Positions 14,165-59,341 of a stretch of DNA of 64,000 nt are shown piece after piece; the stretch's first letter is position 1, and each line of letters starts with the position of its first letter. The DNA is from Pseudovirgaria hyperparasitica (taxonomy: Eukaryota; Ascomycota; Dothideomycetes; Acrospermales; Acrospermaceae). The notes below the pieces were generated by a model. It made no database searches and was not told the DNA's origin. It saw only the letters and a list, made by a program, of their open reading frames with translations. Made by a program: the position numbers and the translations under genes. The DNA is taken from positions 744,001-808,000 of the forward strand of contig NW_022985552.1 in the NCBI RefSeq assembly GCF_010093815.1, given 5' to 3'.

Positions 14165-16825
14165 TCATCTTCCGTAGTTGAAGTACTTCATCGTGAACGC
14201 GATCACTATCACTGGGAGAACACTCGCAATCTCTCCTAAACCGGCAAACTCTGGTCTTATCCTTGCCTTGTCAAAAGCTGCAACAAATGCTCCCGCAGCC
14301 AGAAGAATAGCAAACACGTTATATACCGCCGACCACCCAAAATTGAAGAGAATGCGACGGAACGCACTGCGAGAAATGTCTATAGCAGTGATTACGCCTT
14401 GGAGATCAGGGCGCACAAGCACCACATCCGCTGCGGACTTAGCAACTTCAGTGGCTGATCCAGAGTTAATATGTATACCCAGAGTAGCTTGTGCCAAAGC
14501 AACTGCGTCGTTTGTGCCATCACCACAGAAAATCACCGTTGACCCAGGCTTTTTCTCCGTGAGCGAACGCACATAAGCCTGCTTATCGGCAGGCCCTGCG
14601 CCTGCCACAACATTTTCACTATCGATATTTAGAACAGTCGCTGTATGTCGAACAGCAATATCGTCATCTCCGCTAAGAATATGAACCATAATACCTCGCT
14701 CTTTCAGCTCTCGGACCACTCTGGGAGCTTCAGGACGAATAGTATCCCTCAGACCGAAGATTGCGACCAGATATTGATCATATTCGACGCAGAAGGTTGT
14801 CAATCCTTCACGGAGCATGGCTTGGACGTGAGTGTTGGTTTCAACATGAAGCCAGCGTGCGTTACCGGCACGTATCTGAGAGTCCTGGACACGACCTTCA
14901 ATGCCACACCCAGGTATGACATCGATGGAGTCCAGTCTGTTGGGCTTGACGCCGCTTGCTGCGAGAGCTTCCGCGATCGCAATCGAGACAGGATGCTTCG
15001 CGTCCTGGGTCATTCCCAGCAGGAAGCCCTCTGTCATGGACTTCTCAAAGCCAAGGTAGAACTGCCGAACAACGCTCATTCGTCCTTGAGTCAACGTGCC
15101 AGTCTTGTCGAAAACAACATCCGTAGTCTTACGCGCGATTTCGATCGTCTGCGGCGACTTAAATACCACTCCATACTTTGCAGCCACGCCACCTGCAATA
15201 ACGACAACCATGGGCACTGCAAGCCCAATCGCACAGGGACAAGAAATGATCAATGTAGCGATCGCATAGGTCAGCGCATTGACGGCAGCGCTCTTGTGAG
15301 ATATGTGCTGGATAAGGATACCGACTAGAACCCAGGTGACAAAGACAATCAACGTGATCGCAACTATTACTGGAACGAAGTATCCCGCGACAGTATCTGC
15401 AATAGCTTGGGATCTGGGCTTTGTAAGCTCGGCTGCATCTACCATGTCTGCTATTGCACTGATTGTGTTCTGTCCTGGTAGATTTACCAGCTTCACATCA
15501 AGGTTGCCCGTTCCATTCATCGAACCGGCAAGGACGTGGGAGTCTTTTGCCTTCGCCACTGGTATTGGCTCCCCTGTTACCATAGACTCATTGACTTCGG
15601 AACCGCCGTATACGACAATACCATCTGTCACGACACTAGAATGTGGCATAACCCGAAACGTATCACCGAATTGGAGTAGTCTTGCGTCAACAACTCGGAT
15701 GACGTTGCGGTTTCCATTGTCAATCAAAATGGCAGTCTGAGTCTGGAGTGATCTTATTGATATGGACTCGGTTGCTTTCTGCCGTGCAAGCTCACTGATG
15801 AAACGTCCGAGTAAGATGAGCGTAGCTAAAAGGGTACTTGTTTCGAAGAACGTTCCAGTCTCCAATGCATTCCCTGAGACCATGAAAGCGAAAGCAGTCA
15901 CCGAGAAAGCATAAGCTGCCGTGGTGCTCAACACTATCAAGAGATCCATCTCGATGACCCTTGACCGGAATAGGGATTTGAAGGCGCTTGGATAGAATTC
16001 GAAAGCCACACCAACTTGTATCAAGCTTGCTGCAACCAGTGAGACAACCTGATACACAACAGAGCCTTTATGAGGTATTGGCGCCCATGAGAATACAAGC
16101 ACTGGTAGGGTGAGGAAAGCCGAAATGAAGAACAGCCCGCCATCTCGGCGAACTTGTTTCTTTCCTGCTATTAGAGAGGGGTGAGCTTGAGGAGGAGCTA
16201 GCCTAGGCTTTATATCCGCCAGGCGGTGCTCTAAGAGGTCCCTTGCGCCGACCTCAGCAGCGTTATAGTAAATTCGCAGCAGTTGTGGATTATTATTGTC
16301 GGGTCGATCCACGAGCTGCACTCCTGGACACTGTCCGACTTTCATGAGCGCGTCGGGATGTCCAGACAAGATCTCCAAGGCTTGCCCAATGTCGTCGGCC
16401 AACTGCTCAAAACTGTAACTCGTGACCCGCTTCAATTGGGATATAGACTCATCGATCGAGATTACAGATATATCAATTTCGTACTCGGCTCTTGCCAAGA
16501 CCTGACTTGTCTTCTCATTGCGAATCGTAGGTATCCTTCGAAAGGCTTTGATGAGTTTCTTTTCGCATCCACTGCAAGTCATGCCCTGGACGCTAAGCAC
16601 AACCTTCTCGAAAGCACCAGATCCTCTTTCTGTGTCGACCCCGACAGGTCCAGAATCGAGTATGTCTTCTAGAAACATCGAGCTTTGCTTATCGCTGCAA
16701 CAGCTTTTCTTCGAACCGTGGCTGGAATGATGCGAGTGCACATCTTGCTGATCATTGTGTATATGAGGAGGTTTTCGCTTGCACGGACGCTCATTGCGTC
16801 GATACCAAAGGCCGAGACTGCGCAT
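14165..16825 (-). CDS. P1B-type heavy-metal (copper/cadmium) ATPase
   Basis: Open frame of 886 residues for a membrane pump that moves copper or a similar soft metal using ATP. The N-terminus is rich in His and Cys (HIHNDQQDVHSHHSSHGSKK then SCC). A metal-binding HMA domain follows, with GMTCSGC near residues 81-87. Several membrane segments start near residue 235. Key motifs in order: TGEP (actuator), SCPC in the sixth membrane helix near 530, DKTGTLT (phosphorylated Asp) near 574, the HP dipeptide (HPVSIAIAEAL), and GDGTND near 768. The last helices have FNFGWSAVYN, then AGLGEIASVLPVI; the MxSS signature typical of CopA/ATP7 copper pumps is not seen in the final helix, so it resembles the fungal Pca1/CrpA branch. 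The start at 16825 is the first clear one, but an upstream exon adding more cysteines cannot be excluded. A role in metal detoxification is inferred. Confidence 0.9.
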   Translation of the reverse strand: MRSLGLWYRRNERPCKRKPPHIHNDQQDVHSHHSSHGSKKSCCSDKQSSMFLEDILDSGPVGVDTERGSGAFEKVVLSVQGMTCSGCEKKLIKAFRRIPTIRNEKTSQVLARAEYEIDISVISIDESISQLKRVTSYSFEQLADDIGQALEILSGHPDALMKVGQCPGVQLVDRPDNNNPQLLRIYYNAAEVGARDLLEHRLADIKPRLAPPQAHPSLIAGKKQVRRDGGLFFISAFLTLPVLVFSWAPIPHKGSVVYQVVSLVAASLIQVGVAFEFYPSAFKSLFRSRVIEMDLLIVLSTTAAYAFSVTAFAFMVSGNALETGTFFETSTLLATLILLGRFISELARQKATESISIRSLQTQTAILIDNGNRNVIRVVDARLLQFGDTFRVMPHSSVVTDGIVVYGGSEVNESMVTGEPIPVAKAKDSHVLAGSMNGTGNLDVKLVNLPGQNTISAIADMVDAAELTKPRSQAIADTVAGYFVPVIVAITLIVFVTWVLVGILIQHISHKSAAVNALTYAIATLIISCPCAIGLAVPMVVVIAGGVAAKYGVVFKSPQTIEIARKTTDVVFDKTGTLTQGRMSVVRQFYLGFEKSMTEGFLLGMTQDAKHPVSIAIAEALAASGVKPNRLDSIDVIPGCGIEGRVQDSQIRAGNARWLHVETNTHVQAMLREGLTTFCVEYDQYLVAIFGLRDTIRPEAPRVVRELKERGIMVHILSGDDDIAVRHTATVLNIDSENVVAGAGPADKQAYVRSLTEKKPGSTVIFCGDGTNDAVALAQATLGIHINSGSATEVAKSAADVVLVRPDLQGVITAIDISRSAFRRILFNFGWSAVYNVFAILLAAGAFVAAFDKARIRPEFAGLGEIASVLPVIVIAFTMKYFNYGR

Positions 16826-18049
16826 TTTGAGGTAACCTGGTTATGATTTAGCAGAGATGGAGGATTCTCAATCTGTTTACGTGGTACGAGAAGTCGGCGT
16901 GGGTCGTTATAAGGATACAGCGTATGAGTGATTTTCAAAAGCAATGTTGAAGGATATTGTTCGAACGCGTTAATACCGCTTGCGTACATAGAGCGTCAGT
17001 AGGTCTTGCAGCGAGTAAGGAGTACTTTCATCCGAAGCGGACTTCAGAGTAAACATGTAGTAGCCTCCAACTGCCACTACCGGGCACCAGCATAGCACTT
17101 GGATCACCTATTCATCTTCCTAGCTCTTGTTGTGTGACCTACCTAGGCAGTCTCATGGTCCGCGCCTCCCCATAGTTGACCCAGGTATCCCCGTACTAAG
17201 ATATTATCCGCGCTGATACTTGCCATCTTATCATGTTCATGCACACGCTATCGGCAAGAAAGAATTTCGCAGGGTGGACGGGTGGTCACACTGTCGGAGA
17301 GGTAGTAGGCTTTCGGCGACATGAAGCACAGCAAACCATTTGGAATCCCGACGGTTACGCAGACGACACTTGTATGGGAGCATGAATTTGTATCATGACC
17401 TGCCCTATTTCCACAATCACACCAATTACTCTGGGCGAATCACTAGACGAAGCTTAGAGCCAGTGCAGTGCTTTTGTGAGTCTTGGTGGCACCCAGGTGT
17501 TCGACTCGACCTCAGAGTGCCGGTGTCGAACTCCAAGAACGCATCGTCACCAACCCTTTTTCTATCAAACAACAGCTATGGGGAGAGAGGCGGCTGTATC
17601 ACTGTAAGGGGTCCGACCCTGGCACATGATTGATGAGGGGCTGCGCCTGATTGGGATTATCATCCGATAGATGTTAATTATCTCGAGTCCGAGAGTTGAC
17701 GTTGAGTCTCTGGTGTTAATTAGTGCCTTAGGCAACATAATATCGGACCGACCTACCTAGACACGTGATAGTGTGCAACATAGACCGAAAACGTCATGGT
17801 CATTCTATTACCCGCGTTCATTCACCTTTCTACTTTCAGCGGCCCGTGCAGGGTTCTTCTCGTCCACCCGGTCCATCAGCACGTCGCGCTGTTCGAGACT
17901 TGATGTCCTCACCTCCAGCAGACCCCCGACGAGTCTATAACTACTGTGGGATGCGCTGATAATGCGGCACCGTGCCCACCTAAAAGCTACGCTTGATGCG
18001 GACAACTAGTCTTGGATACCTCATCGGCGCGCTGCGTTCGGCCGCATAG
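16826..18049. other. Divergent promoter region, ATPase and rad4
   Basis: About 1.2 kb between the divergent metal ATPase (minus) and rad4 (plus). Only short frames are present. Two CCTACCTAG-like sites occur (near 17140 and 17752). No gene is supported here. Confidence 0.45.
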
Positions 18050-22228: not shown

Positions 22229-23056
22229 ATGAGGTTCTCCACGGCCCTTTTCGGACTTTTGTCCGCCCTATCGGTGGCTTTGGCGTCGCCAGTTGGCTTC
22301 GAAAAGCGTGCAACCGTAGAAGGCTTTGACATCTCCCACTACCAAAGCTCAGTCGACTTCGCTGGAGCGTACAATGCCGGGCTTCGTTTTGTATTGATCA
22401 AGGCCACGGAGGGCACTACATACAAAGACCCTGCAGTATGGCAGCAACCTCCCCGTCTGTTGTAGTACATCTTGTACTTGTGCGTCTGTATCATCATTCT
22501 AACAAGCTAACAAGCTGTATAGTTCTCCTCGCATTACAATGGCGCGACTACAGCAGGCTTTATCCGTGGCGGTTATCATTTTGCCAGACCTAGCTCAAGC
22601 AGCGGTGCAGTTCAAGCCTCTTTCTTTGCTAAGAACGGGGGCGGCTGGAGTAACGACGGTCGGACTCTTCCTGGTATGCTCGACCTTGAGGGTGACTGCG
22701 CTGGCAAGTCTGCCTCAGCCATGGTATCCTGGATACAGGACTTCGTGGAAACTTATCTCAGTGAGACGGGTCGTCACTGCATAATATATACTAACCGCAG
22801 CTGGTGGCAATCCTGCACGGGTGACTCCACGGCCTTTAGCAACACGAGTCCATTGCATCTGGCGAGCTGGAACAACTCACCAGGAACGATTCCTGGAGGC
22901 TGGGGTGAGCTGATCCACTTGGACTGTAACCATAAACCTAACATCTGTATAGGCTACCAGACCATCTGGCAATATAATGACCACTCTTCCTGGGGAGGCG
23001 ACTCGGATAGGTTTAATGGCGATGCGACACAGCTTCGAAAGCTTGCTATGGGATAG
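22229..23056 (+). CDS. Secreted GH25 lysozyme (Chalaropsis type)
   Basis: Three exons: 22229-22435, 22523-22904 and 22953-23056, giving 230 residues. Introns of 87 and 48 bp have donors GTATGG and GTGAGC and acceptor TATAG in both. Signal peptide is about residues 1-19, then a Lys-Arg pair at 26-27 that could be a kexin site. The family fold starts with GFDISHYQSSVDF (Asp34) and continues with FVLIKATEGTTYKDP, FIRGGYHFARP and MLDLEGDC. The DxE pair is Asp123 and Glu125, the expected catalytic acids. HCIIYTNRSWW and LASWNN follow, and IWQYNDH near the end. GH25 enzymes cut the N-acetylmuramic acid bonds of bacterial peptidoglycan (beta-1,4). A secreted fungal enzyme probably acts against bacteria. 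A clear two-step processing route and complete catalytic set suggest it is active. An upstream ATG at 22178 is in frame but adds a non-signal segment, so I chose 22229. Confidence 0.92.
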
Positions 23057-41244: not shown

Positions 41245-43020
41245 ATGCCATTCGCTTCAACAAATCCAATTGTGCGCGTGGAACCCGACTCCATGCGCAC
41301 AATCGACACATCTAACGTGGAGAATCTGTTTGGGCTGTGGTCAGGTTAGTTTTGACTTGGTGGACTGCGTGATGCGTTGGCTGACAGCATCCTTCTGGTA
41401 GTCTTCTCAAAGTGCGCCGGAACCATGGAAGACGGCAAACGCCTGGAGAACATGAGCTGGAGACTCTGGAACCGGGAGACGTTTTGCTGTGCACCTGACC
41501 TGTCACGCCCCAGACGAATTCCTCTCCCGCGGCAAGACACGGCTGACTCGTTCGGCCTGCCCGAACTGTCTTCCAGTGTCGATTCTCAGTCTTCTGTCAA
41601 CGACCAGCTCGCCACCTGCCCTACACGCTGCGCTCGTCCTGAGCTTGACCGCGTCACTACTTCCAAGGGTCGGTCCTGCAGGAGGGAAAAGCACATCACT
41701 CCTGGTGATTTGCAAGAACTGGTAATCTCCATCAAGGAGCAGCAAGATCTAGAGCCTCTAGCACCCCTGCCTCTCTCTCTTCAACCAGACACTCGCCCAC
41801 AATCGCGACGAGAAGACATCACTCCTCGACCATCTTCTCCTCCGCTACACACCATTCCCGAATCCTCGTCCTCTACCGTCGCCACTGTTTGCGACAGTGA
41901 GCTTGACAACATGTCTCCTCCCGTCGGTTCCGATGTGAGCACCTCGACCGATCTTAGCTCTCACAGCGTAGTCCGTGGCTTCTCTCTGGGTTGTGCTTCC
42001 TCGTCGCTCCGATCTAAGACCCAGCTTGCTCCTCCACCGTCCATCCTCAAGAACAGCCCACAGAAGGTCGAGCTTCGAAGAATGGAGTCAAAGGCAGCCT
42101 TGGCTGAGCAAAGCAAGAAGAAAGGTGCCATGTTTCAACTGGGTACATCGTCCGACGAAGATGCTACCAGTTCCGTCGAGACGTCTCACATGAACCACAG
42201 TTCCTTCGCAGAAGGCTTCAGGAGACCGGCTCCAACACGTAAGCGTGCTTCGTTCAAGATTGGCGCTGATATTGCCACTACACAATCCGAGGAGGACGAA
42301 GAAGAAGAAGAAGAAGAAGAAGAAGAGGAGGATAATGACGAGATTGACAGTGATGCCATTGATACGGACGACGATCCTTCTGAGAGCGCCATTGACGACG
42401 ATGACGATGACTGGCTAGATGAGGAGGACGAGAGTGGTCCTTCCAGTGTCAATCCGAGCGAGCTGTTCCAGCGAGTCGATTCTAGACCGAACCTCACTTC
42501 CCGCCGCTCTCTCATCACGTCCGCACTCCACGAGGGTGACCGTGTCAGAGCGCTACAGAACGACGCTTCAAGGTCCTCCCCCGCCATAAGGCGATCACGC
42601 ACTTCATCTCCCAATGGGCCCTCAATCGCAGCCTCCCCGAAAGAGAATACTACACCACATCATCCTCTAGAACAGCGTGGTATGCTTATTCCATCAAAGC
42701 CCATTATCATGACCACGTCCAACACGCATCCTCCCGCTCTATCACCGCGCACTACGCGACGCAACATGTTATCAACCGAGCTTACCGAGTCTCTTCGGAA
42801 GCATCTTCTATGGGAGCGCCAGCAGAAGAATGCGACGTCCAATGCAGCGCTAAAGCGACGACACACATCCACAGACATGAAGAATCTGAAACAGTATCCC
42901 GGCCAAGGCGAAGTTAAGGTGACACCACTGGCGCCGATTCGGGAGAACGCGAAAACGACAAACTCGTGGAACGCATACTTTGATCATGGCCTGCAAGAAT
43001 ACCACATCAAGGGCTGGTAG
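41245..43020 (+). CDS. AreA-type GATA-like domain and DUF3295 regulator
   Basis: Two exons, 41245-41344 and 41402-43020, giving 572 residues. The 57-bp intron has donor GTTAGT and acceptor GGTAG, and splicing restores LWS-VFSKCAG. The N-terminal block, NVENLFGLWSVFSKCAGTME followed by DGKRLENMSWRLWNRETFCC, is the fungal domain first seen at the start of AreA (PF08550). The C-terminal 80 residues (LTESLRKHLLWERQQKNATS, LKRRHTSTDMKNLKQYP and the end SWNAYFDHGLQEYHIKGW) match DUF3295 (PF11702). Between them are KKGAMFQLGTSSDED, KRASFKIGAD, a run of 10 or more Glu, an Asp run and WLDEEDESGPSS. There is no GATA zinc finger, so it is not AreA itself. Relatives with this pairing are thought to act in nutrient or carbon-repression signalling; that role is inferred. 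Symbol unknown. Confidence 0.88.
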
Positions 43021-54516: not shown

Positions 54517-54885
54517 ATGTACGCTATCACTCCTATCCTCCTCCTCGCCAGTCTCTTCAGCACCTCGCTGGCTGCCGACATCTACATCCAAGGCAGGCAT
54601 TTCGGCGGCGACGACCGGATCCAGATCGGCAATACCAACTGCGGGCAGGATGTCTACCACTACTCCGACATCACCTGCGATGGCAACGCCAGAATGCATC
54701 TCGGCAGCGTCGTACCCCATGACTGCAAGGCCGATGCTCCAGGCAACACATACACAAACATTGTAGCGTCGGGCAAGTGTAAGGCACACCTTGGAAACTT
54801 TTATCAGCAGGATGACGATGCGGATGATAACGAGGAGGATTATGAAGACTTTCTTGAGAGTGATGATGACACCAATGAGGACTGA
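54517..54885 (+). CDS. Small secreted protein with four Cys and an acidic tail
   Basis: Single-exon gene for 122 residues. Start MYAITPILLLASLFSTSLAA is a clear signal peptide with cleavage near SLAA-DIY. The mature part, DIYIQGRHFGGDDRIQIGN followed by TNCGQDVYHYSDITCDG, has four cysteines (two more in PHDCKAD and SGKCKAHL), enough for two disulfides. The last 27 residues are almost all Asp, Glu and Asn (QQDDDADDNEEDYEDF and on). No known domain recognised. The same promoter-proximal region continues into two other small secreted genes that also have acidic tails but a different cysteine pattern, so I do not claim homology. Small size, secretion and cysteines fit a surface or effector-like protein; this is inference. 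The longer in-frame TTG start upstream is not used because the signal peptide begins at this ATG. Confidence 0.8.
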   Translation: MYAITPILLLASLFSTSLAADIYIQGRHFGGDDRIQIGNTNCGQDVYHYSDITCDGNARMHLGSVVPHDCKADAPGNTYTNIVASGKCKAHLGNFYQQDDDADDNEEDYEDFLESDDDTNED

Positions 54886-55840: not shown

Positions 55841-56298
55841 ATGCTCTACTCTACCCTTATTTCCCTGCTACTACTGGGTGTAAGCACTACAGAGGCCCGA
55901 CCTCCTACACTGGTGCAGCTATCACGCCGCGAACACGAGACGTGCTACTCGGAAACAGACATCTGGTGCTGTACCAAGAACAAACCTCTTAATAGCCTGA
56001 CAGACTGCTATACCGATGATGACGAGGATTGGGTAAAAAGGCGATGTAGTTCGTGGGTCGAGTGGTATCTAGTATGTTGTACGGAGGATGAAGATGAAGT
56101 GAGTTCTCCAACTATTGCGTAAAACTGCGAGAATACGAGCTGACTATGAGGTAGAATGCGACCCCTGGTGCTTTGATCTGTTCAGATGTGGATTATGATC
56201 ACGACGATGACGACGACGATGATGATGATGATGATGATGATGGCGACGATGATGACGATGATGACGACGACGACGACGATGACGATGATAAGGCTTAG
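55841..56298 (+). CDS. Hydrophobin-pattern secreted protein with poly-Asp tail
   Basis: Two exons, 55841-56098 and 56155-56298, giving 133 residues. The 56-bp intron (donor GTGAGT, acceptor GGTAG) is phase 0. Residues 1-18 are a signal peptide (MLYSTLISLLLLGVSTTEA); Arg29-Arg30 may be a kexin site. Eight cysteines follow in the order C35, C43-C44, C56, C69, C79-C80, C95: spacing 7, 11, 12, 9, 14. This is the C-CC-C-C-CC-C order of hydrophobins and is close to the class II spacing (9-10, 11, 16, 8-9, 10), but the chain is hydrophilic. After C95 the tail is 13 Asp, one Gly, 15 Asp, Lys, Ala. Without the splice the frame would stop early, without C95 and the tail. Its neighbour at 56570 is a paralogue. 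Hydrophobin membership is inference; secretion, cysteines and tail are direct. Confidence 0.75.
56203..56289 (+). repeat. GAY trinucleotide array coding for poly-Asp
   Basis: 29 codons, 28 of them GAC or GAT for Asp and one GGC for Gly, in the second exon of the secreted gene. GAC and GAT are mixed, with a pure run of seven GAT at 56221-56241. It is likely to vary in length between strains. Confidence 0.9.
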
Positions 56299-56569
56299 AA
56301 GGAGCTGCAGCAGCACTGATGTCAAGATGCAGAAAGAGTATGTATGATGTTAAGCAAACTCATCCTTACAATTTCGCTTGACTGTCTGTCCAACTCAAGA
56401 TGTATTCATTGGAAAAGCCATCAGTAGCACAAAGAAAACTCTCGTATTCTCTAACACGTCCCTTCCGATGGCGCCTTTCTCGGTTCTTATATCGCATAAT
56501 TGCCCAAATATGCATACACCAAGACTTACACACCCATTTCCCACACCATAACCTTCAAGATCTACAGCC

Positions 56570-56952
56570 ATGTACTTCGTCCCTTTTGTTGTCTTGTTGC
56601 AGATCGTCGTATGCACCTGCACCACATCCCTCCTGAACAATCGAGCCTCAAAACCAAGATGTCCTACCCACGACAGCACCTCACTGTGGTGCTGCGTGGA
56701 AGAAAGAGACAGTGATAGAACATACTACTGCTGGACACAGCCAGATCCACATGCTCTGGAGCGACTTTGCGCAACTTCGGATGCGTGGGAGTTGCAATGC
56801 TGTAGTCGACCTGATGTATGTGATCTCGAGACTACTACTGCAACAATATATACTGATAGCTATATCATCAGCCTACGGACAGCGTCCTTGACTGCTCGAG
56901 TGTATGTGATGATGACGATACCGAATATTCTAAGGATGGGGACAAAGAGTAA
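56570..56952 (+). CDS. Hydrophobin-pattern secreted protein, paralogue
   Basis: Two exons, 56570-56815 and 56872-56952, giving 108 residues. The intron is 56 bp, phase 0 (donor GTATGT, acceptor ATCAG), the same length and position as in the gene 270 bp upstream. Signal peptide about 1-20 (MYFVPFVVLLQIVVCTCTTS), then a short basic stretch. Cysteines C31, C41-C42, C54, C67, C77-C78, C90 have spacing 9, 11, 12, 9, 11; the three central spacings match the neighbour exactly, as does the aromatic Trp before the first CC. CPTHDSTSLWCC recalls the start of class II hydrophobins. A ninth cysteine (C94) precedes an acidic tail (CDDDDTEYSKDGDKE). If unspliced, the frame continues into a basic, non-family sequence, so splicing is favoured. 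Role unknown; a secreted surface-active or cation-binding protein is one guess. Confidence 0.72.
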
Positions 56953-57330: not shown

Positions 57331-59341
57331 ATGGTCGCGCTCTCGAATTTATCTCTGTGGCTAGGCCTCGGAGCGGCCGTGGAAGCGGCAGGGAAAGGAG
57401 ATACCCATATGCCTATAGTTGCGCAGAGTAGGGGTCAGACGGTAATGGTGGGGAACGATGCATATTACATTCCTGCTGCGCCGGAGGTGTGTTGTTTTCT
57501 TCGAGATGAGGGTCACTGAGTGGGTTGGACTGATGGATACGAAGTTAGTGTTTCCAGCTCCTGACGCACTCGGGGTTGACTTTGAGGACGCATATGTTCC
57601 TGTTACATTGATTCATGAGGAGCATGTACAGAATTACCAAAAGACGATTGAGCGGTTTGGGAATGAAGATGATGTGTGGACGACAGCGTTTGCGGACTTG
57701 ACGATTGTTCACTCGCCAGATTTGTGTCACCAGAACGGGTCTGCGGGGATCGATTCCTTTCTCGTTCCGCTGAATGTACAGCAACTGAGTGATCTTTCGG
57801 AAGGGCCATATTTCCTCATGGCAGGAGCAAGGAACTGGAAGATATACAAAGCGTTCCGGCTGTACAACGACCACAATTTCTCATTCTATTACGGCGTCAT
57901 AGATGAAGGAAGCGGGAAATTTAGCACCCTGCCCGCAACACACCCATTCACAGACGGTTCCGCCACCATCGCGGTACCATCTCGACTATACTATGCAGCT
58001 CCATCATCCGAGAAGCCCCTTAACGGCGTCCGCATCGGCCTGAAAGACATCTACGACCTCGCCGGTCTCAAGACGAGCATGGGCAACAAAGCCTGGTTCC
58101 ACCTGTATCCACCTGTCAACACCATCGCATACTCAGTCCAACGCCTCATCGACCTGGGCGGTATCATCGTCGGCAAAACACGCACCAGTCAGTTCGCAAA
58201 CGGCGAAGCCCCAACGATCGACTGGGTCGACTACCACGACGCCTTCAACCCTCGTGGTGATGGCTACCTGGACCCCAGCTCTTCATCCGCAGGCGCTGGA
58301 TCCGCAGAGGCATCGTACCCCTGGATTGACATGAACATCGGCTCCGACACCGGCGGCTCTGTGCGAGCGCCCGCGGGTGTCAGCGGTGTATACGGGAACC
58401 GTCCAAGCCAGGACGCACTGGATACATCAGGCGTCGTGATACTCTCGCCTGAAATGGACACACTGGCATTCGTCGCGCGTTCTGCCTCTCAGTTCGCTGC
58501 TTGGGGCAAGGCATGGTATGCCGCAAACCCGCTCTTCAAATCCTACCCTGCCCTCCCATCAACACTGCTATACCCACTCGACACACCTGATATAAACACA
58601 ACGGCCTATCCCAGCCCAGGTTTCTTTCCCTCAACTAACATCTCTGCCCCCCTATACGAAGCCTTCGTCGTCGCGCTCGAGCGCCTCCTAAACACCACCC
58701 GCACTCCAATCGACATCTACACCTCCTATAAACAGACCTCCGGCACAAACCTCTACCCGCCCGACCACGTCGGTGAGGTATGGAGCAAACTGACCACATA
58801 CGCCCAATCACGCCTCGTCTTCCCGGCCTTCTTCCGTGACTACGCCGCCGCACACGACGGCGACAGACCCCATCTTGACCCACCAGTCGCACGCAACTAT
58901 GCGTTCGGACTGAACCAGACCGACGCCGACGCTGCGCGGATCCGCGCGTCAAAGGCTGTGTTCCAGGACTGGGTGCGCACGCGTCTGCTCAAGTCTGACT
59001 TCTCGTCTGCTTCGTGCTCGGATGCTGTCTTGGTGAGTCCACTCGTGCAGGGCGTGCCGTCGAGTCGCGAGACGTATGGCGTGGAACGGCCAAGTGGCGA
59101 GGATGTTTACTTGGGATGGAACAAATACGGTATTGCGCAGTTGGCCGGGGTGCCGGAGGTAGTGATACCACTTGGGAGTGTGGATTTTGAGAGTCCGGTG
59201 ACGGGAACGGTCAAGAAAGCGCCGGTCGCGGTGAGTTTGTTAGCAGGATACGGGTGTGACTTCATGCTGTTTGATTTGGTGGAAAGGTTGGCGCAGGAAG
59301 GGGCCGTGGTGGCGGAAGTGAGGACTGGAGAAGACTTGTAA
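57331..59341 (+). CDS. Predicted secreted amidase-signature enzyme
   Basis: Two exons, 57331-57486 and 57545-59341, giving 650 residues; an in-frame ATG at 57298 would add 11. The 58-bp intron has donor GTGTGT and acceptor CGAAG, phase 0. The N-terminus (MVALSNLSLWLGLGAAVEAA) looks like a signal peptide. About 150 residues of less familiar sequence precede the amidase domain, which begins near GVRIGLKDIYDLAGLKTSMG: the catalytic Lys is in GLKD. The Gly/Ser loop has SSSSAGAGSA with the cis-Ser, and GSDTGGSVRAPAG gives the nucleophile. The family cleaves amide bonds through a Ser-cisSer-Lys triad; the substrate is unknown. The domain continues to VPEVVIPLGSV, a typical end block. Several Asn-x-Thr/Ser sites fit secretion. 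The gene lies next to the small secreted cluster, which may be chance. Confidence 0.88.

Follow-up and report, generated by a model that had tools for sequence, protein, structure and literature searches.

Two adjacent genes for cysteine-rich, acidic secreted proteins

The window analyzed here is a stretch of 64,000 nucleotides from the ascomycete Pseudovirgaria hyperparasitica (Dothideomycetes, Acrospermales; contig NW_022985552.1, positions 744,001 to 808,000; positions below are those of the window). On its plus strand lie two adjacent genes, here called A and B, whose proteins both begin with a hydrophobic leader and may descend from a class II hydrophobin. Gene A (55841 to 56098 joined to 56155 to 56298) encodes 133 amino acids, and gene B (56570 to 56815 joined to 56872 to 56952) encodes 108. 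Exon 1 of gene A (55841 to 56098) specifies a signal peptide of about residues 1 to 19, an RR site preceding the mature part, and cysteines C1 to C7, and exon 2 (56155 to 56298) adds C8 and then an acidic tail. Exon 1 of gene B (56570 to 56815) likewise holds a signal peptide, of about residues 1 to 20, and C1 to C7; exon 2 (56872 to 56952) continues with C8, a C-x3-C spacing to a ninth cysteine, and an acidic tail. Both signal peptides were judged by eye. The gaps between successive cysteines are 7, 0, 11, 12, 9, 0, and 14 in A and, counted from the first mature cysteine, 9, 0, 11, 12, 9, 0, 11, and 3 in B. An earlier note on this DNA had described a common CC-x11-C-x12-C-x9-CC spacing, a Trp before the first CC, and phase 0 introns of 56 base pairs, and all of these are present in both genes; the ninth mature cysteine of B was absent from its description.

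The candidate introns rest on splice consensus. That of gene A (56099 to 56154; GTGAGT, CTGAC, and TAG) follows C6C7 by six residues, that of gene B (56816 to 56871; GTATGT, CTGAT, and CAG) follows it by four, and donor, branch site, and acceptor are good in both. No other strict candidates occur on the plus strand between 54400 and 57400, and the plus strand of the whole window holds 20, against a mean of 9.2 per strand in base-shuffled windows. Both proteins stand in the database as unspliced translations, of 93 and 152 amino acids for A and B.

Three acceptors were compared for the gene A intron. With the acceptor at 56154, which the earlier note had chosen, exon 2 reads through a run of 29 codons (56203 to 56289, plus strand) made up of 28 Asp (GAY) and one Gly. 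The third positions of this run are 16 T and 13 C, and a single change falls among the other 58 positions, so that 13 of the 14 changes are at third positions (P of 6e-6 under equal rates, with repeat slippage ignored). We favor 56154 over the alternatives because in that frame nearly all variation in the run falls at silent third positions. The same pattern speaks for selection on Asp, with the arithmetic weakened by repeat slippage. The acceptor at 56150 (GAG) may be used instead; the protein would then end in a short tail that, like the tail of B, contains C-x3-C, and the Asp run would not be translated. The acceptor at 56185 gives a Met/Thr run in place of Asp. A plain microsatellite is a possible origin of the run, but we set it aside as an explanation on account of the near confinement of variation to silent positions. 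Apart from gene A, the six frames of the window contain just one run of at least ten Asp or Glu residues, EEDEEEEEEEEEEED, at 42289 on the plus strand within a long open reading frame.

The two genes are homologous

The cysteine pattern does not arise readily by chance. When the window is read in six frames, a tolerant form of CC-C-C-CC is found at two places, and these are A and B. The window has 460 stop-free stretches of at least 60 amino acids; in 300 rounds in which their residues were shuffled, the exact spacing never appeared and the tolerant pattern appeared 87 times, or about 0.3 times per window. A and B are homologous and resemble each other beyond the cysteines. Their local alignment scores 92, against 42.5 ± 10.3 for shuffles in which the cysteines were held fixed (1 of 5000 as good), and the exon 1 parts alone score 88 (4 of 5000 as good). 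In a search of their own genome up to an expectation (E) value of 10, A finds B at 0.00595 and B finds A at 0.0057; nothing besides these two was returned among the best candidates, which alone were scored. The introns agree at only 16 of 56 bases in register, and from this dissimilarity the duplication is not recent.

Searches of the protein database with A and with B returned only themselves (4 candidates each), by a method that needs shared five-residue words and may miss distant relatives. Within that limit the result carries weight, because the database does hold fungal proteins. A scan of viral contigs for the pattern gave 47 stretches and no relative of A or B, and sequence searches of the PDB with both gave nothing useful. 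In their own genome the only relatives found for A and B are each other, and the family is so far seen only in P. hyperparasitica.

Decay or faulty gene modeling would account for this lack of database relatives and for the unspliced database copies: the pair would then be copies of a hydrophobin gene on which constraint has relaxed, or the splicing would differ from that drawn here. There is precedent, in that passages of a Trichoderma study judge two class II genes that have lost part of the helix to be likely pseudogenes (PMC2253510). We regard this explanation as improbable, since both copies keep eight cysteines, open frames, leaders, and splice signals, share residues other than cysteine, and in the Asp run vary almost exclusively at third positions.

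An intron at the site used by class II hydrophobin genes

A profile search of the P. hyperparasitica genome with PF06766, the class II hydrophobin family, found four genes (L003, L004, L005/L006, and L007/L008) and one weak match under the cut-off (L009); neither A nor B was among the matches. The class I profile, PF01185, found nothing in this genome, in a search run without a control, by which absence is not established. The four genes were spliced by eye and by script, the C4-C5 intron of L007 being read by eye from the DNA, and the spliced L004 model equals the database protein P0003 letter for letter. All four have a C4-C5 gap of 16 and a C5-C6 gap of 8. The C3-C4 gap is 11 in three of them and 14 in L007, and L007 has a C1-C2 gap of 7, the same as gene A.

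For a broader class II set, an alignment of A, B, and these four hydrophobins served as the query, and the best 120 of 1004 matches were taken. Sequences from the top of such a list lean to typical members, and the other 884 matches could hold atypical ones. Spacing was counted in 119 of these listed relatives, the unspliced protein P0004 having dropped out. Gaps of 16 (C4-C5), 8 (C5-C6), and 10 (C7-C8) were each found in 118 of the 119, and C1-C2 ranged from 8 to 10. The C3-C4 gap was 11 in 118 of the 119, as it is in A and B, which also have the eight cysteines arranged as C-CC-C-C-CC-C after a signal peptide (with one extra in B). The four residues or so that the earlier note had proposed as lost from the C4-C5 loop were borne out, at 12 in A and B versus 16 in class II.

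In three of the four hydrophobin genes of this genome a phase 0 intron stands exactly four residues after C6C7. With a slash for the intron, the sites read CCVAPV/LGQDVLC in L003 (intron length 149), CCVIPV/AGQAVLC in L005 (length 49), and CCAVPV/AGQSLVC in L007 (length 64); L004 has no intron there. Gene B reads CCSRPD/PTDSVLDC and is equal to L003, L005, and L007 in site and phase, a point of support beyond those in the earlier note. By hand arithmetic, if a coding sequence of 327 nucleotides received one intron at random, the chance of its falling at exactly this site would be about 1/326. The hydrophobin idea had already been put forward when this comparison was made, and A and B amount to a single event in it. 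A second intron, of phase 1, lies in the C4-C5 loop of L004, L005/L006, and L007 and is missing from L003. It is also missing from A and B, in which this loop is four residues short.

Passages of the Trichoderma/Hypocrea study, which covers three species, report that all chromosomal hfb genes have two positionally conserved introns, and that exon 2 of Trichoderma class II genes codes for the helix and the third strand (PMC2253510). Those passages give no coordinates, and we infer that one of the two sites is that seen in B. The public "hydrophobin 2" of Pseudovirgaria (P0004; L003, 1381 to 1728) is translated straight through the intron that follows C6C7 and therefore lacks the C8 exon.

Patch loops of low hydrophobicity

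In class II hydrophobins the C3-C4 and C7-C8 loops hold the hydrophobic patch. We compared A and B with 123 class II cores, one of which is a duplicate (P0003 and the L004 model), by grand average of hydropathy (GRAVY). The earlier note had proposed that the surface became charged and may not be amphipathic at all, and the core GRAVY of both proteins is indeed negative, at −0.63 in A and −0.72 in B, versus 0.15 to 0.78 in the class II cores. The difference is larger in the patch loops. The C3-C4 loop scores −1.32 in A and −2.08 in B versus 0.06 to 1.90, and the C7-C8 loop −0.89 and −1.14 versus 1.05 to 2.54, so both loops of both proteins fall below the class II minimum, on what is a measure of sequence only. 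The C7-C8 loop has five charged residues in A and four in B, where class II sequences have at most two, and the C3-C4 loop of B has six, where they have at most three. A has four Trp residues and B three, versus none in the 123 class II sequences; Trp is described as rare in hydrophobins in passages of a survey of Aspergillus (PMC3020181).

These values bear on whether A and B are working class II or intermediate hydrophobins, merely divergent, that still coat interfaces. Their cysteine order, leader peptide, and size would fit such proteins, and very divergent "intermediate" hydrophobins are reported from Aspergillus in the same passages (PMC3020181). With patch loops less hydrophobic than any in the class II set, charged C7-C8 loops, negative core GRAVY, and a poly-Asp tail, we find it very improbable. 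A functional hydrophobin was accordingly ruled out as the leading interpretation on the patch loops, GRAVY, and the profile tests given below, and A and B are probably no longer able to work as hydrophobins.

Residue comparisons, predicted structure, and the case for convergence

Several results weigh against descent from a hydrophobin. Gene A (CCTEDEDE/NATPGALIC) has its intron in the same phase as the hydrophobin genes and two residues later, at CC+6. In spacing, neither protein has the class II values outside C3-C4 and, in B, C1-C2: C4-C5 is 12, C5-C6 is 9, and C7-C8 is 14 in A and 11 in B. The C3-C4 loop of A has three charged residues, equal to the class II median of three, and departs in hydropathy only. 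A Pfam search with A and B gave no PF06766 or PF01185 row up to an E value of 10, with filters that drop most matches above 0.1. Against a profile of the 123 class II cores, 1983 of 2000 cysteine-fixed shuffles of A and 941 of 2000 of B scored as well as the real sequence. Both control hydrophobins were members of that profile; for a profile of the hydrophobins of this genome the controls were left out, and they scored 70.3 to 110.4 with shuffle maxima of 27.5 to 33.0. A scored 1.4 bits on this second profile, a value reached by 1973 of 2000 cysteine-fixed shuffles and by 999 of 2000 full ones. When A and B were compared pairwise with the same hydrophobins, in eight comparisons, 553 to 1878 of 2000 shuffles did as well as the real pair, and a profile-profile alignment with hhalign gave a probability of 0.18% over 20 columns, out of register, with 139 of 200 column shuffles as good.

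B scored 8.7 bits on the profile of its own genome's hydrophobins, a score reached by 453 of 2000 cysteine-fixed and 37 of 2000 full shuffles. It thus beats full but not cysteine-fixed shuffles, and therefore its cysteine placement fits and its other residues add nothing. Hydropathy along the chain anchored on the cysteines correlated with class II at r of 0.03 and 0.10 (2136 and 1298 of 5000 shuffles as good), while the minimum r was 0.57 when 121 class II sequences were left out one at a time. As far as sequence and profile comparison can tell, A and B have no similarity to class II hydrophobins beyond the cysteines.

For the exon 1 parts of both proteins, AlphaFold2 models predict a strand with CC, a strand with C4, a helix with C5, and a strand with CC, which is the hydrophobin order, at a predicted local distance difference test score (pLDDT) of 70 for B and 66 for A. 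The models are weak, do not include C8, and do not decide the fold, and they too count among the points on the other side. With them Foldseek gave best E values of 2.8 and 2.6 and no hydrophobin among the matches listed (the best 50 of 60 in one case and 22 in the other); as no solved hydrophobin was run as a control, this is not counted against the fold. A second structural look at the models, to which the same limit applies, had no hydrophobin among 4 and 7 rows.

The missing residue similarity, the Trp residues, and the altered spacing would all be accounted for by convergence, the main rival. A and B would then be an effector-like secreted family with an unrelated disulfide-stabilized fold, such as a KP6-like alpha/beta sandwich, and the cysteine order and intron site would be coincidental. 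Against it stand the intron of B, identical in place and phase to that of hydrophobin genes, and the C3-C4 gap of 11, and for KP6-like folds in particular two helices are described where the partial models of A and B have one. We take convergence to be a real possibility at clearly less than even odds.

A proposed origin and function

The hydrophobin reading of the earlier note was half right: the cysteine order and the intron of B at the class II site agree with a hydrophobin-type family, and a Pfam or profile match to go with them was not found. We put at roughly 0.45 the probability that the tandem genes A and B encode soluble, acidic secreted proteins, rich in disulfides, and descend from a class II hydrophobin gene, a soluble binding function included. 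Descent from a hydrophobin would explain the cysteine order, the C3-C4 spacing, the intron, and the predicted order of elements, and we rank it ahead of convergence. The data themselves give the gene pair, its homology, the cysteine order, the acidity, the loops without hydrophobic character, and the coincidence of introns; the descent, the disulfide pairing, the soluble behavior, and the binding role are what we infer from them. The pair would go back to an old tandem duplication of a gene encoding a small acidic secreted protein rich in disulfides, with a class II hydrophobin gene as its most likely origin. The order of eight cysteines and the intron after the second CC would have been kept, the C4-C5 loop would have lost four residues and be without its intron, and both hydrophobic-patch loops would have been replaced by polar and charged residues, with Trp gained.

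Hydrophobin disulfides pair C1 with C6, C2 with C5, C3 with C4, and C7 with C8. By analogy, we expect the products of A and B to be soluble extracellular proteins, built on a hydrophobin-like frame of these four disulfides, that act by binding; the acidic tails would hold a cationic partner or cations, and Trp side chains would add to the contact. Chitosan or basic peptides, at an interface with another fungus, are possible cationic partners; that A and B bind cations or a cationic polymer is the most natural guess from the tail and charge. P. hyperparasitica is a hyperparasite of rusts, and the name itself says hyperparasite. Passages of a study of rust-diseased crabapple leaves report its transcripts there and suggest opportunistic colonization (PMC12542627). 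A fuller proposal, which we think unlikely, starts from duplication of a class II hydrophobin gene in the hyperparasite; the frame would then have been "turned inside out," with polar and charged loops, a shrunken helix loop minus its intron, and a poly-aspartate tail, to give a soluble polyanion directed at a cationic target at the fungus-fungus interface, an anti-hydrophobin function.

The origin of many small secreted orphan proteins of fungi is unreadable from sequence. An intron at the codon boundary and phase of hydrophobin genes is a handle that residue comparison does not give. If the descent proposed here is true, soluble secreted proteins would have hydrophobins as one of their sources, and other orphans with eight cysteines could be sorted by where their introns lie.

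Neighboring genes

Upstream of A lies a third gene for a small secreted protein (54517 to 54885, plus strand; 122 amino acids), with four cysteines and also an acidic tail of Asp and Glu. Its cysteine frame differs from that of A and B. A search of its own genome with part of the protein found no relative, Pfam had no match over the cut-off (TIG at an E value of 0.013), and the best PDB match had an E value of 0.52. An amidase (PF01425; E value, 1.7e-27) is encoded directly downstream of A and B at 57446 to 59341 on the plus strand. Elsewhere in the window are a heavy-metal P-type ATPase with a PCA1-type HMA domain (14165 to 16840, minus strand) and an exon of a lysozyme-like glycosyl hydrolase of family 25 (22523 to 23056, plus strand).

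Comparison with known systems

Others have selected hydrophobins by the same cysteine order, according to passages of PMC12675215. The spacing of A and B does not appear in passages of PMC5412055, a literature search for hydrophobins with acidic tails turned up only a mollusc shell protein, and the passages found that name Pseudovirgaria have nothing on these proteins.

KP6-like effector candidates, as described in part of PMC9632046, are similarly small and secreted, with two to four disulfides and a mixed alpha/beta fold; they differ in having two helices, and their structural match to A and B is insignificant. OmSSP1 is a secreted protein with eight cysteines and no Pfam domain that has been proposed to be a hydrophobin-like effector. 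Unlike the strongly hydrophilic A and B, it is hydrophobic overall (GRAVY, 0.53) and clusters with class I, by the passages of PMC5938622. The intermediate hydrophobins of Aspergillus keep the cysteine order with spacing and hydropathy outside both classes, and Trp, if rare, is present in some of them. In that survey 5 of 50 hydrophobins were without Pfam classification, and the part of its spacing table that was covered has no CC-11-C-12-C-9-CC (PMC3020181, in part).

The class II hydrophobins themselves (PF06766; the HFBII/cerato-ulmin kind) are unlike A and B in spacing, with C4-C5 of 16 and not 12, C5-C6 of 8 and not 9, and C7-C8 of 10 and not 14 or 11. A and B differ from them further in the absent C4-C5 intron, the patch loops that are not hydrophobic, the Trp residues, the acidic tails, and the missing profile match. 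Common to both are the leader peptide, the size, the C-CC-C-C-CC-C order, and the C3-C4 gap of 11, together with, in B, a C1-C2 gap of 9 (8 to 10 in the 119 listed relatives) and the place and phase of the intron, and a predicted order of strand, strand, helix, and strand.
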